Assembly (NCBI GenBank): GCA_003693705.1 | Contig: RBZT01000664.1 | Span: 1-59,092 of the forward strand | DNA from: Polymyxa betae | Lineage: Eukaryota > Endomyxa > Phytomyxea > Plasmodiophorida > Plasmodiophoridae | Length of the DNA: 59,092 nucleotides | Direction of reading: 5' to 3' | In this document: one piece after another, positions 34,433 to 50,674 of the stretch | How positions within the stretch are numbered: the first letter of the stretch is position 1 | How the letters are laid out: every line of letters begins with the position of its first letter | The notes under the pieces: generated by a model | Told to the model about the DNA's origin: nothing | Databases searched by the model: none | What the model saw: only the letters and a program-made list of their open reading frames with translations | Made by a program: the position numbers and the translations under genes

Positions 34433-36092
34433 TTATTTCTCTTCTTTGGGCAATCTATCGTTACAGTGATTTTCTTGATCGTAGCCATTGATATCGAGCT
34501 CGATGAATTCCTCATGGACGGCATTCAGTGCTTCTACGACATCTTCCTGATCGATGACGACAGATATGTTTCGTTCGCTGCGCTCCAAATTAGCCACGCG
34601 TAAAGAATAATCCAAAAACTTACGAAGCGCCTTGACTGATAGCCCGAATGTTGATCTTCGCTTTGCCCAGAGAACTGAGAACGCTACCAGCGATGTTCGA
34701 GCGAAATCGCATGCCGTCACCGACAGCAGCCAAACAGGCACACGGTCCAAACGTATCGATAGTTTGGATCTCTTTCGACTCGAGTTCGTCGCGGAATTCT
34801 TTCTCGATGCCGGCAAGAGCTGCCGACGCCTCATTCATCGGTAATGCGAAACAGATGGAATGCTCAGAACCCGCCTGCGTCACAAGCATAACGGAGCAGC
34901 CGATCACATGCATGGCTCCGAATAGTCTCGACGCAATCCCAGGAACGCCAACCATACCGCAACCCTCGACGTTAATCAGCATTAGGTCCAGGATCGTTGA
35001 GAATCCTTGAATACGGGGAGCGTTCTCAATACGAGAGGGCAGGATCGTGCTGCCAGGAGATTCGGGTTTGAACGTGTTTCGAATGCGGATTGGAATCTCG
35101 GTTCCGACCAGAGGCGTCATGGTCTTCGGGTGGAGGACCTTGGCCCCGAAATACGCCAATTCCATCGCTTCTTTATAAGACACCTTCGACCGGATCACGG
35201 CACGATCGACAATGTTCGGGTCGGCACTATAGACCCCATCTACGTCGCTCCAGATCGTGAGTTCGTCCGCACTGATCAATGCAGCCATTATCGACGCCGA
35301 GTGATCGCTGCCGTCTCGTCCAAGTGTGTACGGCACCCCATTCTCGGTCGAGCAGATGAAACCGGTAATGACGACCAAATCGCATTCCTCATGCGCTTGC
35401 AGCCACGTTTGCCAGCTTTCGCGAGAGCGATCGAGCAGCGGGACGGTATGACCAGGGCGTCGGGTCGAAACAGTGATGACATCGCGAGCATCGAGCCATT
35501 GGACCGATCGACAGTCAGCCGCTTGCCGCAGATAGGCGGCCATTAACCGAGCTGACCAGATCTCACCATAGCCTGTCCACCATGGGCACGTCTTCTATGA
35601 TTCAAGTCAGCATAAGCTTACATAGCGATATCTTTATAGCATACCGTATCCGCCGTCTTGCTAAGCCATGCGTTTTTCAAGACGTACCTCAGGTCATCGG
35701 CGTCTGCATGCAGCTGCTCGACAATCTTCGATCGCTGATCGCTTTCGCCTCTGAAAGCAAAACGTTAACAGCAATAAAAACAGCGAAGGTGATTATCCTT
35801 ACAGTAACTGTTCGGCGGTTTCAACGCTTCGATTAATGACCGCTCGCAGCACATTCTCATAGGAAGGGTCACGAGCCGCCGCCAGACGGGCACATTCAAT
35901 CAGCAAAGATGTAACTTTGTCGTAGACGGTGTTTCCTGCTTTGTCCTTTAGCTTTCCCTGGGCGCTGACGACAACAGCCAGGCGGCGCTTGTCAGTGCTA
36001 AGGATGTTGGCGGCGTGGCGATAGCAGTCAGCGTCGGCCAGGCTGGTGCCGCCGAACTTGTGAACAGCCCAAACTGGCTTAGCTCCGACCAT
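34433..36092 (-). CDS. Aspartate kinase of the ThrA (bifunctional) lineage, without homoserine dehydrogenase
   Basis: Starts MVGAKPVWAVHKFGGTSLAD at 36,092 (kinase KFGGTS motif). It continues with VITGFICSTENGVPYTLGRD, GSDHSASIMAALISADELTI, WSDVDGVYSADPNIVDRA, SYKEAMELAYFGAKVLHPKT and IPIRIRNTFKPESPGSTI. Two ACT regions follow: VEGCGMVGVPGIASRLFGAM and AKINIRAISQGAS/ERNISVVIDQ, the last joined across an intron. These are closest to the kinase part of aspartokinase-homoserine dehydrogenase. Reading stops about 35 residues later with an acidic end (CNDRLPKEEK), and no dehydrogenase domain follows. The enzyme phosphorylates aspartate, the first step to lysine, threonine and methionine; the ACT domains suggest feedback control by an end product. 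About 480-500 residues. Confidence 0.93.
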
Positions 36093-44642: not shown

Positions 44643-45467
44643 ATGGCAACGCCGATCCTCGTCCAAGGGGCAGGCCGGGCGTTCATGCCTGGTCTAATGG
44701 CCGGGCTCATGGGCAGCGCCGGCATCCAATATGGGCCGCAGCTGTTCAAGAAGGACAGCGACGCCTCGCAGCTGGCTGCCGCTCTGGCTGCAATCCGTCA
44801 GGGTCCCGGCGTCACAGTCGTCACGAGTCCGAACGGCGGGAGCAGAATTCCATCGCTTTCATTAGCTGCCGTCTGCTTATCAGGAGTCGGGCTGATTACA
44901 CTGAAGCTCGCTGGCGTCTCGCTGACTTCGTTTTTCTGGGTCACCCGCCGTCACTTCCGCAAGGGTATGATAACTCTTGAGAAAGGAATGGATGGATTAT
45001 CGAAACGTATCACCGAGGTTCGCGTCGGATTACTATCGAAAATCGAGCAGGTCATGGGCAAACAGGACAAGCTTGCGGCTTCTCAGCAAGAAATTCGAAG
45101 TGACCTGAATTCGCTCTCTATCAAAGTCGGCGAAGTCGAAGGTGGTATCAACTGTGTTAAAGGCGTCGTTGATGCCGTCGCCCAGAAGATTGATAGTGTC
45201 GAAGTGAAAGTCGACGAATCTACGGCCATGCTGCAAGAAGCTAATCGTGGTGTGCTTCTATTGTGCCGTATCGTCAGCAACACGATCGAGAGTCGGGAAA
45301 CGTCTTTCGAGGAGGCGAAGATGTTGCGAGAATTCGCCGAAAAACGAAGTATTGAACCAGGCAAGCTGTCATTCTTTTCCGCAACGAAAACGGATTTCAA
45401 AGATGTCGTCACATCAATGCCTTTTGGCTGCCGCTCTAATTTCAACAAAAACTGGATCCATACTTAA
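44643..45467 (+). CDS. DUF1664-family membrane/coiled-coil protein
   Basis: Single uninterrupted exon of 274 codons, unusual for this window. MATPILVQGAGRAFMPGLMA is followed by a Gly/Ala-rich region, a hydrophobic segment (SLSLAAVCLSGVGLITLKLA), then FFWVTRRHFRKGM and a long coiled coil (EKGMDGLSKRITEVRVGLLS; EVEGGINCVKGVVDAVAQKI). This order, a membrane segment then a VT+ motif and heptad repeats, is that of plant DUF1664 proteins, whose function is unknown. The C-terminal ~50 residues are not conserved. The hydrophobic N-terminus and coiled coil suggest an organelle or endomembrane scaffold. A viral or bacterial origin is not suggested by composition. It ends 174 bp from the convergent E4 gene. 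Confidence 0.75.
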   Translation: MATPILVQGAGRAFMPGLMAGLMGSAGIQYGPQLFKKDSDASQLAAALAAIRQGPGVTVVTSPNGGSRIPSLSLAAVCLSGVGLITLKLAGVSLTSFFWVTRRHFRKGMITLEKGMDGLSKRITEVRVGLLSKIEQVMGKQDKLAASQQEIRSDLNSLSIKVGEVEGGINCVKGVVDAVAQKIDSVEVKVDESTAMLQEANRGVLLLCRIVSNTIESRETSFEEAKMLREFAEKRSIEPGKLSFFSATKTDFKDVVTSMPFGCRSNFNKNWIHT

Positions 45468-45641: not shown

Positions 45642-48600
45642 TTATTGTTTGCATCTGTCTTTCCATTCCTCAATCCTCTCTTGCAACTCAACATCTAAAA
45701 AAAAAATAGATTAGCACACTCAAACCAATCATATTCCTACTTGGGAGGAGCATTTCAAGAGTCAAAGGCTCACGACAAAATGGATCTGATCTTGAGGATA
45801 AGAGATGTCGGCAAATGACGGCTCGATCCATGGTCACCCCCGAGCTTGGCAAAATAACTGGATCTTCCATAAGGGTATTGAGGATCGGATCCAGAAATTC
45901 ATCGGGAACATCTCCAAGCTCTACAGCGTTAAATGAGTATAGATGTCATTCAGGTGAAACCACGAATACCTTCTCGCATGTTCTTTTGCTGCTCGCACAG
46001 AGCGACAAGCTCATCAAAGTACTTTTCGAGATCTGTAAGAAAATGGGGATACCAGGGGTCGGAATGGTCGATCAGGGACTCCGATTGTCGTAATATCTGT
46101 AAGCAATTCGGGAATAGATCAGGCCTGAACGATTGCTCGTCGGAAACAACTGCCTGTGACACAGTTAGCACTTGGGCCTTCATGGATAGAAATAAATACC
46201 AAGTTGAATTGATGGTACGGGCTCAGATTTACATACAGCTGTCCGAATGCCTTCAGCCAGTTAGTTGGCACGAACCCCAATGTAGCAAGAGCCTCCCGCT
46301 CGGCGACAGGTATGATATCCACTAGTTTAGCCATATAATGAGAGATCATCTGTGCTATTCGTTCCACCATCTCTGGTCTCATCAAAATCATCTGAACGCC
46401 TACAGAGGATTCAGCACATAGTTGGAAGCAGAGCATTATTCGTTACATGGGAATGAGGCAAGATTCAAAAGCGTCCTAAGAGTTTCGTTTGAAAGCGTCG
46501 TAACAATCCGCAAATGGCGGCGAATTGGACCCGAGTTTCTAGCCTACAGCTCATTAGAAATTTCGCAATAGTGATAGCAAACCAGCAATTACATCATTGC
46601 TACGACCGGTTTCGTAGAACTGTTCCGACTTCAGGAGAACTTCGTCCATGACGAACACCATATCGGATACCAGACAATGAATGAATTGCAGCGCCTCATC
46701 ATGATTGTTTTTGCTGAAAACTAATGTTAATTTGATGACAGAGTTCAGAAGTCAAAAGAAGCGATACAAAAAAGGCGGAGATTTTATGACGAGGATAAAC
46801 TTCAAAACAACTTGCGCGAAAAATTGGTAAACATACCAGTAATGAGAGAGTGTATGTTTGTGAGTGTCAGACAGGATCACATAATTGATGACAAGCTCCA
46901 GCAGGTTCCGTATCTATAAAAGCACAATATTAACAAGGTAAAACACACCGGTAGCTGGAGAAACTCACATTGAATTTGTCGTAAAACTGAGAAGTCGAGC
47001 CACTATGTTCTGCCAGAATATAGTGACGAATGAGTGCAGGCAGCAGGCGATCGACCATGAAACTTAACGATGATGAGAACAAAGATATTGCAAAAAATGC
47101 TGAACTTACCGATCAGTGGTGATCAAAGTGTTAAAGCGTTGAGACCCAGGACCGTGTGATGTGGGAATCGGTGCCAAACCGCACAGTACTTCAACGAACT
47201 TCGATCGAAGATGCGGGTTCCTTACGTAATCTGGACTACAAAAACTTAATAAAGCAAAACAAACTTTGGCAACATTGCAAATAACAACATTGCAAATAAA
47301 CTCGAATCAGGCAAGAAGTAACTGAGGAATGCAAAAAAAATCAAACAAGCAGCAAACCTGGCGATTAACGAGACAAACAGGCGTAGAATGAAGGCACAGT
47401 GATGATCTTCCGTAAATTCAGGATTGCTTGCCGGCGGCAAAGCGGCCTCTAACGCAGCGCAATCATTTTCACAAAGGAACAGGCAGAAGGCAGCCATGTC
47501 TTCGAGAAAATACTCCGGAATCATAGCAAATTCTTTTGGGCAGGGCTCCGGTAAAGGAAATGCAGGACCGCCAATCAGTATCAAAACGAATCGTGCGCTA
47601 AGACCGTAAAACGCAAGCGTGGTTCTCAGCATGATGGGGTCGAGCAATTCCACAGCCATGGTAAGCTTCATTTTAAGTATAGAAGAAAACTGCGGATTAG
47701 ACCGATTAGAACCTGCCAAGATTGATCAGTCAACGGTGAAGAGCAAAGCTAGTAGCTGCCTAAAAATATATTGACACTACAAAAGCCCAAAAACAGCAAA
47801 GAGCGCAAACACCGACCAGAGCTTTGAATTGTTTGAACGAGTGAGCTGTATCTGGAGCAGGTTTGAATAACGCCCAGATGAAGAGCGTGCATGGTGAGAA
47901 AGAACCATTCACTATGCAGATCGACACCAAAGCTTCCGGTGACTGCATTCGGATAGATCGGAATTGCAGGCAACGTTTCCGTCCATGGGCCCGGACGAAC
48001 TGGCTGCATAAGCTGCATAAAAGTATGATCCGGCGGGTGCGACTGTCGCACTTGCTCTTGCGATTCGCAATCGCTGCACAGATCAAAGGTTGCAGGACAG
48101 TTGATGCAAACAAACCGGATTCTGAAAGAATCTTACATAAGCACAAAAAACGCAGAGTTAAAAAAACAGAGTGGAGGGAATTTCAGATCCTGCAAACATC
48201 GCAAACCTACAAATGGAAAGAAAAATGACAAACAGGAGATTTGATGAGTTACCCTCGAATAGGCGAAACATTACAGGCTTTGCAGCGCGTACCTTCGTGA
48301 ACGACCAATTCCTGCTACAATCAGCAAACAGAAATCTGAAGAGGAAGGAATGACTACCTGATCAATTGGTGCCTCGCTGAGGAGCTCGGGAATTGCCATG
48401 TGCAGGGTTCGTTTCCAGGGACTGCAAGTGATCATGCGCCTGATTTTCAACATTACATGATGAAGATGGTCGTGATTGTCGGGATGCTCGCGTTGTATAT
48501 GTTCGTGCAGATTGGAGTGAACAGAATCGACATTGTTGACTAACGGTTTAAATTAAATCACAAGATGGTGGACAAAGCAACATTACTGGAGCAGATAGGA

Positions 48601-50674
48601 CACCTTAATGGAGAGTGATTTTCGTGATGAGCAACAATCACGTGAGATCGAAGCTCAGATTCCGAGAAACTGGTTGTTACAGGATTTGTACGACATTGCC
48701 GAAAAGGGCATTGGTACGTTGTTGGAGGTTGCGTTGGGTGTCCCAAAGTCCTCATATACATCTCGTGATCGCACTGCTTACCATTCAGGAATTGAGAGGC
48801 TAGCACAACAGTTAAGCAGACCTTCTCACATAAGTCGAAGTCTTGACAGTGGATGCATTTGTATCTGATTCCTTGAATGCACCGCGATCGACATAGATCG
48901 CCTATATACAGATTAAGCATAAAAACTCACATAAAGACGTTTGCATCGTCCTACAAATTATGCCATAATGCGAGTCGTTGATAACCGTTCGAAAAAAATT
49001 TTGATCAGAATCCGATTGTGGAACACCTCGCCTGTTTTCCATTATTTCTTGGACCTAAAAGAATAATGTTGATAAAAGCGAAGAATGCTCAAATTACAAT
49101 AAAAGCACAAACTTCTGAGAGCGGAGCATAGATCCTGGTCTCGTTCTCTCCTAAATCCAATCGCGAGCGTGACATAAAAAAGTCAGGCTTAATTTTGTCG
49201 GCTTCAACTTTGAGCACATTTAGGGCAATATTGGTCATCAGGACGCAAACGCTCATAAGAAACTCGTCTGCGCAAGAATTAGACACGACATGAGGCCGAT
49301 ATGAACAAGTACTTGTCGAGCCAGCCCGATTCCTGGAGCGTAGACGTGCACGACCCCAGTTGCCGTGCAGGATGCAAGCGATCCACGCTAACAATGATGA
49401 GCGACAAACGCCATCCTCAGACAGCATTTCTCGCCAGATACTCTCCAGAATCGAATGCACTCTATAGCCATTCAGAATGAATGGTTTCAGGAAAAAGAGA
49501 GCAAAAGGGAGATAGAATTTGTGATAAAAATTGAGCAGAATAATTCGCAACAGAATAGAGAATAAAAAAGCAATCCGTGAAAAAGTGCAATATGCAATGA
49601 CAATAACCTGTCAAGTTTGTGCCGAAGATTGGTGGTATTGATGAGGATATGTTGCTCAGACATTGAGTCGGCTTGAGCGAATACCGCGTCAGCAACCGAG
49701 AAATCGCGTTCTGTTAGAGTCGACAGGCGAAGAAAGACGCCCATGATACTGTCGAATTCAAAATTCGGGCCATTAATCCAGGACGTGATGAAATCAGGAA
49801 GCGTTGAGAGAGTCTGCAGTACCCGCCGGCTACATAAAAGCAGACGACGAAGTCCTCGGAGCTGATCCTGATATGTACTGCTTAACAGATTCTCTTTTCG
49901 AATGGCGTTAACCAAAGTATTAACAACGATATTGACAGCGTCGCGAATCTCTTCAGTCGTCATCGAATTGAAAAGAGCGGATAAGAACACATCGTTAGCC
50001 GGTGTGATAGGCTCGTCGTCGCCTTCTGGCTTCACCAATGCCTTAACAGAGCGGTTATTAGCGCGACGATCTAGACAGAGCCAATCACAGAATGTCTGCG
50101 ATCCAAGCTGCCTGGCATCCGACATCGGAATCAGCTCAGGGCGGATGATAATCAGCTTCGCGTATCTCAACAAGATGCGGGCAAGCTGGTGGCATTCAAC
50201 GCGAGCGCTGGCGAAGCAGCCCTGGAGGAAATCGAAAGGGTCGGGGTCGCCCAGCCGATCGACGATAAAGGCGTCGATATTGTCGAATGACATACGGCGG
50301 GTGCGACCTTCAGTAACACGGTCCCATGATCGCCAATAGTCATCACTAGAGTAATCTAAAGGGAGCTGCAACAGACCGCGTAGGAGGGCATCTTCGTCAG
50401 CCGATGATGGAGACGATATCGTCGACGTCGGCAAATCCATATGGATTTGCCTGATTGGGGCGTCGGCGACTCCCGGCACAGGCGGCCGACGAGATGTCAC
50501 TCGAGGACGATCAACTGGGATATGATATGCCCCAGGCAGAAACGAATGAAATTTGAAAATTAATTTTCGCACTATTTTTAGTGCCGCTCTGCGAACAGTC
50601 GAACACGTCTTTGGAATTCTTCGCCCGCTCATCCTTTGTGCTTCTTCGTATTTCTCCAACTGCAACGTTTTCAT
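45642..50674 (-). CDS. UFD2: UFD2/E4 ubiquitin-chain elongation factor with an inserted ZZ-C2H2-ZZ zinc cassette
   Basis: Starts near ATG 50,674 ([20 protein letters not shown]) and ends in a U-box, [20 protein letters not shown]...[16 protein letters not shown], closing [16 protein letters not shown]. The UFD2 core is clear on both sides: [58 protein letters not shown], then [31 protein letters not shown] and [20 protein letters not shown]. Between [10 protein letters not shown] and [11 protein letters not shown], where homologues have only a short loop, four zinc modules are spliced in frame: ZZ finger 1 ([24 protein letters not shown]), two C2H2-like fingers (YQCPFRQC...HVIVAHH; CPIC...HEHIQREH) and ZZ finger 2 ([34 protein letters not shown]). 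E4 enzymes extend ubiquitin chains with CDC48/p97. Introns are mostly 44-50 bp, one about 130 bp. About 1,300 residues. Confidence 0.88.
48010..49060 (-). other. Zinc cassette of the E4 gene (ZZ1, two C2H2-like, ZZ2)
   Basis: Marks the exons for the inserted module inside the E4 gene. Frame is kept through every intron I tested: SLC|DLCRSRC; CEK|CDHEMYM with the acceptor [34 protein letters not shown]; and PIRG|IRFVC after a ~130 bp intron, then [17 protein letters not shown] and [10 protein letters not shown] into the UFD2 core. ZZ1 plus C2H2 fingers resembles the KCMF1 arrangement. The C2H2 spacing is of the Di19 kind. Confidence 0.8.

Follow-up and report, generated by a model that had tools for sequence, protein, structure and literature searches.

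A KCMF1-like zinc cassette inside the core of a Polymyxa betae UFD2/UBE4 protein: a candidate E4 ligase with a built-in receptor for N-termini

Introduction

The E4 ubiquitin ligases UFD2, UBE4A and UBE4B (yeast Ufd2, PDB 2qiz and 9khs) share a Ufd2P_core domain followed by a C-terminal U-box. A second chain-extending system is formed by UBR4 and its separate subunit KCMF1 (PDB 9jni, 9d9z and 9qws), in which a ZZ finger with pocket aspartates and two C2H2 fingers are arranged as one unit. This ZZ-DZB unit (a ZZ followed by a double zinc finger) is described to serve UBR4, an E4 ligase, as substrate receptor, with a preference for N-termini that have Thr at position 2, and a C-terminal helix of KCMF1 pins into UBR4 (PMC7618180). 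Here we describe a gene of the plasmodiophorid Polymyxa betae in which features of both systems are found in a single polypeptide: the KCMF1-type unit sits inside a UFD2 protein and a second ZZ is added. The gene occupies positions 45642 to 50674 of contig RBZT01000664.1 (assembly GCA_003693705.1), which was analyzed over 59,092 nucleotides, referred to below as the window.

Several described ligases come close to this arrangement. Deletion of the KCMF1 ZZ or mutation of Asp29/Asp31 is reported to have abolished recognition of a processed mitochondrial client, in an experiment performed once (PMC12286842). The same ubiquitin-fusion substrates were described to be stabilized in human cells when UBR4, KCMF1 or UBE4B was knocked down, the effect of UBE4B being smaller (PMC12552062). 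The ZZ belongs to KCMF1 in animals, plants have it within UBR4 itself, and the receptor is therefore known to change hosts; plant BIG/AtUBR4 is, as described, an E4-type ligase with the ZZ receptor in its own chain, as in the protein studied here, but it is built on a UBR4 instead of a UFD2 scaffold and its DI19 partner is a separate protein (PMC7618180). Plant PRT1 (RING-RING-ZZ) is likewise a single-chain ligase whose ZZ reads N-termini (PMC11668491); it is, however, a RING E3 and its described architecture comprises neither a UFD2 core nor a double zinc finger.

Results

Architecture of the gene

The following features, all on the minus strand, were assigned.

45642..50674, minus strand: whole gene, UFD2/UBE4-type E4 with an internal zinc cassette; 18 exons, 1268 aa (homology, GT-AG sites, Pfam)
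49113..50674, minus strand: exons 1-2, N-terminal region and N-terminal half of the UFD2 core, aa 1-472 (Ufd2P_core profile)
47914..49054, minus strand: inserted segment between the core halves, aa 473-744 (272 aa), exons 3-8 (part)
48771..48970, minus strand: first ZZ (ZZ1), aa 501-533, crossed by two introns, KCMF1-like (Pfam, structure profiles)
48627..48710, minus strand: first C2H2 (C554, C559, H576, H581), first half of the KCMF1-like double zinc finger
48484..48602, minus strand: second C2H2 (C590, C593, H608, H613), with one intron
48025..48299, minus strand: second ZZ (ZZ2), aa 660-707, with one intron
46067..47916, minus strand: C-terminal half of the UFD2 core, aa 744-1159
45657..45909, minus strand: U-box, aa 1196-1264, broken by one 46-nt intron (Pfam; 1wgm)

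The start codon at 50674 and the end of the stop codon at 45642 coincide exactly with the limits given in the original prediction, which a model had made from the letters of the stretch. Exons and introns were set by eye from homology and GT-AG sites. All 17 introns of this model (46-146 nt) have GT-AG borders, a stop is met on read-through in 13 of them, and the spliced frame runs over 1268 aa with no internal stop codon, in line with the earlier claim that every intron keeps the frame. A 29-nt intron within ZZ1, part of the first splice model, was dropped in favor of a 53-nt alternative because the latter restores H-Y-G-I-I-C-D-x-C as found in relatives. Intron 4 (48 nt) would stay open if retained, adding 16 codons; its splicing is preferred since it gives the CxxC and the spacing of the relatives. 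The acceptor of intron 6 is defined only to within one codon.

Pfam, the check proposed together with the original prediction, returned Ufd2P_core at 5.7e-90, the U-box at 8.6e-27 and ZZ at 3.1e-13 on the spliced protein, the latter in two stretches that both lie in the insert. The match to zf-Di19 (aa 551-613; 4.4e-4) reached 20.9 bits against a Pfam cut-off of 27.5 and is thus sub-threshold. Both core and U-box are complete, and the U-box matches that of E4A (1wgm) at 6e-24. Positions 48-156 of the Ufd2P_core profile match 49086-49457, the N-terminal half of the core, at 3.0e-10; the alignment of this half with yeast Ufd2, at 0.2 bits, is not significant alone. The N-terminal half ends in [11 protein letters not shown] (aa 472) and the C-terminal half restarts at SEWFFLT, so that the split core with its normal C-terminal U-box, including the split points, is as originally proposed. 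At this site yeast Ufd2 has, in that weak alignment, a short loop, compared to an insert of 272 aa in the Polymyxa betae protein. A second UFD2 gene of the same genome (24.4 Mb, 541 contigs), located on contig C449 between 8000 and 17000 on the minus strand (L009), has a short cysteine-free linker and no zinc insert at the corresponding site (frame C449 12958-12605, read by eye). On sequence grounds, the fusion of a zinc cassette inside the UFD2 core is near certain.

The predicted structure of one relative, P0121, adds to this picture. In the model, which is without the N-terminal core half, the C-terminal half and the U-box are ordered, and the modelled core aligns to yeast Ufd2, with which it has the UFD2 fold in common. 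The zinc modules are connected by linkers with pLDDT < 50; the cassette lies in the loop between the core halves, probably on flexible linkers.

Recurrence of the layout in relatives

A search with the C-terminal core half and the U-box, scored on the 7994 candidates with the most shared words, gave 221 matches, the best 120 of which were listed. Among these 120, five proteins (P0001, P0002, P0004, P0005 and P0006; records from ena, lgn and jgi) carry Ufd2P_core, zf-Di19, ZZ and U-box in precomputed Pfam. A further match, P0003 (sources ncbi and jgi), begins inside the insert and, by reading, holds part of it. The same applies to P0121, which was retrieved by an alignment search; among the 58 matches of that search Pfam shows a UFD2 core in P0121 only, and the remaining 57 are different ZZ proteins. 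The zf-Di19 match is above the cut-off in P0001, P0002, P0005 and P0121 and below it in the Polymyxa betae protein and in P0006; in P0003, whose sequence begins inside the insert, Pfam did not find it. Counting Polymyxa betae, eight carriers were thus obtained, and the original question of whether UFD2 homologues have the same insertion can be answered with seven relatives. In each of the seven the insert, complete or in part, precedes the same core motif, which makes it unlikely that the layout arose by chance or from a chimaeric contig.

Three of the seven relatives (P0002, P0004 and P0005) contain both insert junctions and the remaining four only the downstream one. P0002 and P0004 are near relatives of each other, as are P0001 and P0006. 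P0002 fills 85% and P0004 84% of its own contig, and both are for this reason probably intronless frames; in these two the fusion is probably independent of intron calls. The upstream junction is not covered by P0001 and P0006, which start within intein-like sequence. Each of them has two such segments, which we take to be intein-like by eye from intein motifs; no intein match was found for these segments in Pfam or NCBIfam. The first precedes the third Cys of ZZ1 and ends in VVGQC directly at this zinc-binding Cys, and the second lies in the core between LPLPT and PMEFAALPEY, starting with CFDV and ending with VGNC.

None of the matches with an organism name among the best 120 of 221 carries a ZZ in precomputed Pfam. 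The claim that the layout is absent from named organisms is nevertheless weak because the recall of the protein search and its listing are limited. Scans of prokaryote genome and viral contig collections confirmed no relative.

A tree was calculated from the C-terminal core half and U-box only, with the insert left out. Its 42 rows comprise Polymyxa betae, the seven carriers, P0007 (whose sequence is truncated beyond the insert site) and 33 further matches out of the remaining 113 on the list; 34 had been picked by hand and P0034 was dropped for want of an anchor. No animal sequence was recognized among the named rows. The carriers together with P0007 form one side of a branch with a support of 100/99. 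Two long branches had been flagged as meeting, and the grouping persisted when either the Polymyxa betae row or P0003 was removed. Their end branches measure 1.31 and 1.46 changes per column, respectively, and branches of this length in carriers suggest that the insert is old.

The insert resembles KCMF1

The zinc modules occupy about aa 501-707. Four of them in about 230 residues had been predicted, and their presence and order (ZZ, C2H2, C2H2, ZZ) stand, whereas the insert as a whole measures 272 aa. In a comparison with solved structures, human KCMF1 (9jni) aligned at 1.4e-10 to the first half of the insert, across its ZZ and both C2H2 fingers. A family profile of ZZ1 and the two C2H2 fingers, built from five rows (the Polymyxa betae insert, P0005, P0002, its near copy P0004 and a partial P0001), matches the same KCMF1 entry at 8.4e-24 over profile positions 2-115, that is, end to end. 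The best match outside KCMF1, HERC2 at 1.8e-9, is confined to the ZZ and about 14 orders of magnitude weaker. Judged from these profile matches, the insert is a KCMF1-type ZZ-DZB unit plus an extra ZZ and not a set of four independent fingers; the first three of the predicted modules are one known unit. For ZZ2, the structure matches were the HERC2 ZZ (6ww3, 8.2e-8), ZZZ3 and PRT1 (8zg8).

The pocket residues of KCMF1 are found in ZZ1. D507, D526 and D528 align with D10, D29 and D31 of KCMF1, which form its acidic pocket for the N-terminus; the D-x-D of the pocket is present in all seven covering rows and CDxC in four of four. In ZZ2, all seven rows compared have the full set of six Cys and two His; P0004, nearly identical to P0002, was omitted from this comparison. 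P0003 has about 33 extra residues between the second and third CxxC of its ZZ2.

N-degron genes and KCMF1 in the Polymyxa betae genome

UBR4 is present on C338, UBR boxes were found on C30 and at two places on C508, and ATE_C (arginyl-transferase C-domain), ATE1-like, occurs at C479:7993-8499 and C461:22266-22664. On the basis of these places an N-degron pathway is likely in this organism. The two ATE_C places suggest two genes.

A stand-alone KCMF1-like ZZ-DZB was not found with the ZZ and Di19 profiles in this genome, where a copy split by introns or lying in an assembly gap could escape. These profile searches treat each exon separately, the weak matches were not all read, and the assembly is possibly incomplete. 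The ZZ profile gave seven matches, two of which belong to the gene itself; by eye, we take others to be Ada2-like (C173 and C204) and a RING-ZZ protein (C296), and there remain one ZZ on C308 and a weak one on C425. The places at C173:107956-108060 and C204:89747-89839 are two different ZZ genes. None of the eight Di19 matches, one of them this gene, is above the cut-off; several on the minus strand were viewed by a both-strand pattern scan only, and L016 and L017 lie outside that scan. With the ZZ-DZB of a relative as query, only this gene and the ZZ on C204 were retrieved. An unbroken ZZ pattern was also absent from the minus-strand frames in the 30 kb around UBR4 on C338, where introns could hide one.

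Discussion

Proposed function and alternatives

We consider it reasonably probable that the protein is a UFD2/UBE4-type E4 ligase with a built-in substrate receptor for an N-terminus or degron. ZZ1 and the double zinc finger would bind the free N-terminus of a client, either an N-degron or another exposed N-terminus. The bound client would already be ubiquitinated, with its ubiquitin bound by the UFD2 core, and the U-box would bring a loaded E2 and so lengthen the ubiquitin chain. That the gene is expressed, and that its product binds zinc and N-termini and extends chains on the clients it captures, is what we infer from sequence. The original prediction had already placed recognition and chain extension in one polypeptide, an idea that gains from the homology of the insert to the KCMF1 ZZ-DZB receptor and from the retained ZZ1 aspartates.

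Several observations weigh against this function. Complete ZZ fingers finish their second zinc site with a conserved His pair after the last CxxC. This pair is missing from ZZ1 in all seven covering rows; two His, H535 and H544, follow ZZ1 in the Polymyxa betae protein, and the other carriers do not have them. Because of this loss, the fold and binding of ZZ1 may differ from those of KCMF1, and the missing pair is the main point against a simple copy of KCMF1 binding. ZZ2, conversely, has the pocket D-x-D in none of the seven aligned rows and CDxC in one; the acidic amine-binding pocket of the ZZ N-recognins p62 and PRT1 is not kept. With the pocket kept in ZZ1 only and the zinc ligands complete in ZZ2 only, the two ZZ retain opposite halves. 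Of the two predicted ZZ fingers, both are thus present and the first is incomplete, and the predicted link to N-degrons holds for the ZZ1 pocket and not for ZZ2. KCMF1 itself is a disputed model, described as an E3 in its own right or as a receptor only (PMC12286842 versus PMC7618180). Finally, the protein searches had poor recall: a search with the insert alone gave no match at E <= 0.001 among 254 candidates and retrieved none of the carriers, and the alignment search did not re-list P0004 or P0005.

As a first alternative, the cassette may be a receptor for a ligand other than an N-degron, such as histone H3 or SUMO with an unmodified N-terminus (as for the HERC2 ZZ), a chaperone, or a fixed partner by which the E4 is positioned. 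ZZ2 indeed matches the HERC2 entry linked to SUMO1 (6ww3), and ZZ1 the entry of HERC2 with histone H3.1 (6ww4). In addition, the position of KCMF1 R20 is I, V, P or A in the four rows that cover it, and R20 belongs to a residue set whose mutation was reported to impair UBR4 binding (PMC12286842). The longest and best match, however, is KCMF1 including the double zinc finger, which is absent from the short HERC2 entries, and we regard this alternative as unlikely though worth keeping in mind.

It is improbable that the zinc modules serve as an additional element for catalysis or E2 docking, which would unite two ligase activities in one protein. The KCMF1 ZZ is described to support ubiquitylation (PMC12286842), but KCMF1 is also described as having neither an E2 interaction in a predicted-complex screen nor ligase activity with the E2s tested (PMC7618180), and ZZ1 is less complete here than in KCMF1. 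Just as improbable is a structural or regulatory loop that has lost ligand binding, in which the missing His pair of ZZ1 and pocket of ZZ2 would be signs of decay. Both losses extend over all rows compared; on the other hand, no change is seen across the aligned rows in the ZZ1 pocket aspartates or in the zinc ligands of ZZ2 and the C2H2 fingers, even though the end branches of two carriers exceed one change per column in the core tree. An artefact of the gene model or of the assembly, with two genes read as one or a false join in the contig, can practically be dismissed: the introns were set by eye and homology, but seven other sequences have all or part of the same order, three of them with both junctions and two of these filling about 85% of their contig, and the carriers form one phylogenetic group.

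Evolutionary implications

UFD2 would be a third home for the ZZ after KCMF1 in animals and UBR4 in plants. In the literature searched, neither a UFD2/UBE4 protein with such an insert nor a ZZ receptor inside UFD2 was found described, and the earlier statement that no E4 with this layout was known therefore applies to publications; as database proteins, relatives with the layout exist. We propose only tentatively that in a deep eukaryote lineage the client-reading unit of UBR4-KCMF1 moved into the unrelated E4 UFD2, possibly replacing KCMF1, and gave rise to a single-chain extender that reads N-termini. UBR4-KCMF1 and UFD2/UBE4B are both chain-extending systems, and the natural fusion would then point to clients shared by the two pathways, as independent evolutionary evidence. 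Its size, estimated from length at about 140 kDa, would also make the protein a small E4 for the joint study of recognition and extension, as opposed to a 1.3-MDa ring.

Neighboring genes

Two further reading frames were noted in the window. At 44643-45467 on the plus strand, next to the E4 gene, lies a single-frame protein with a DUF1664 domain (1.7e-17). An aspartokinase-like frame with amino acid kinase and ACT domains is found at 34620-35594 on the minus strand, which hints at the organism's own synthesis of aspartate-family amino acids.

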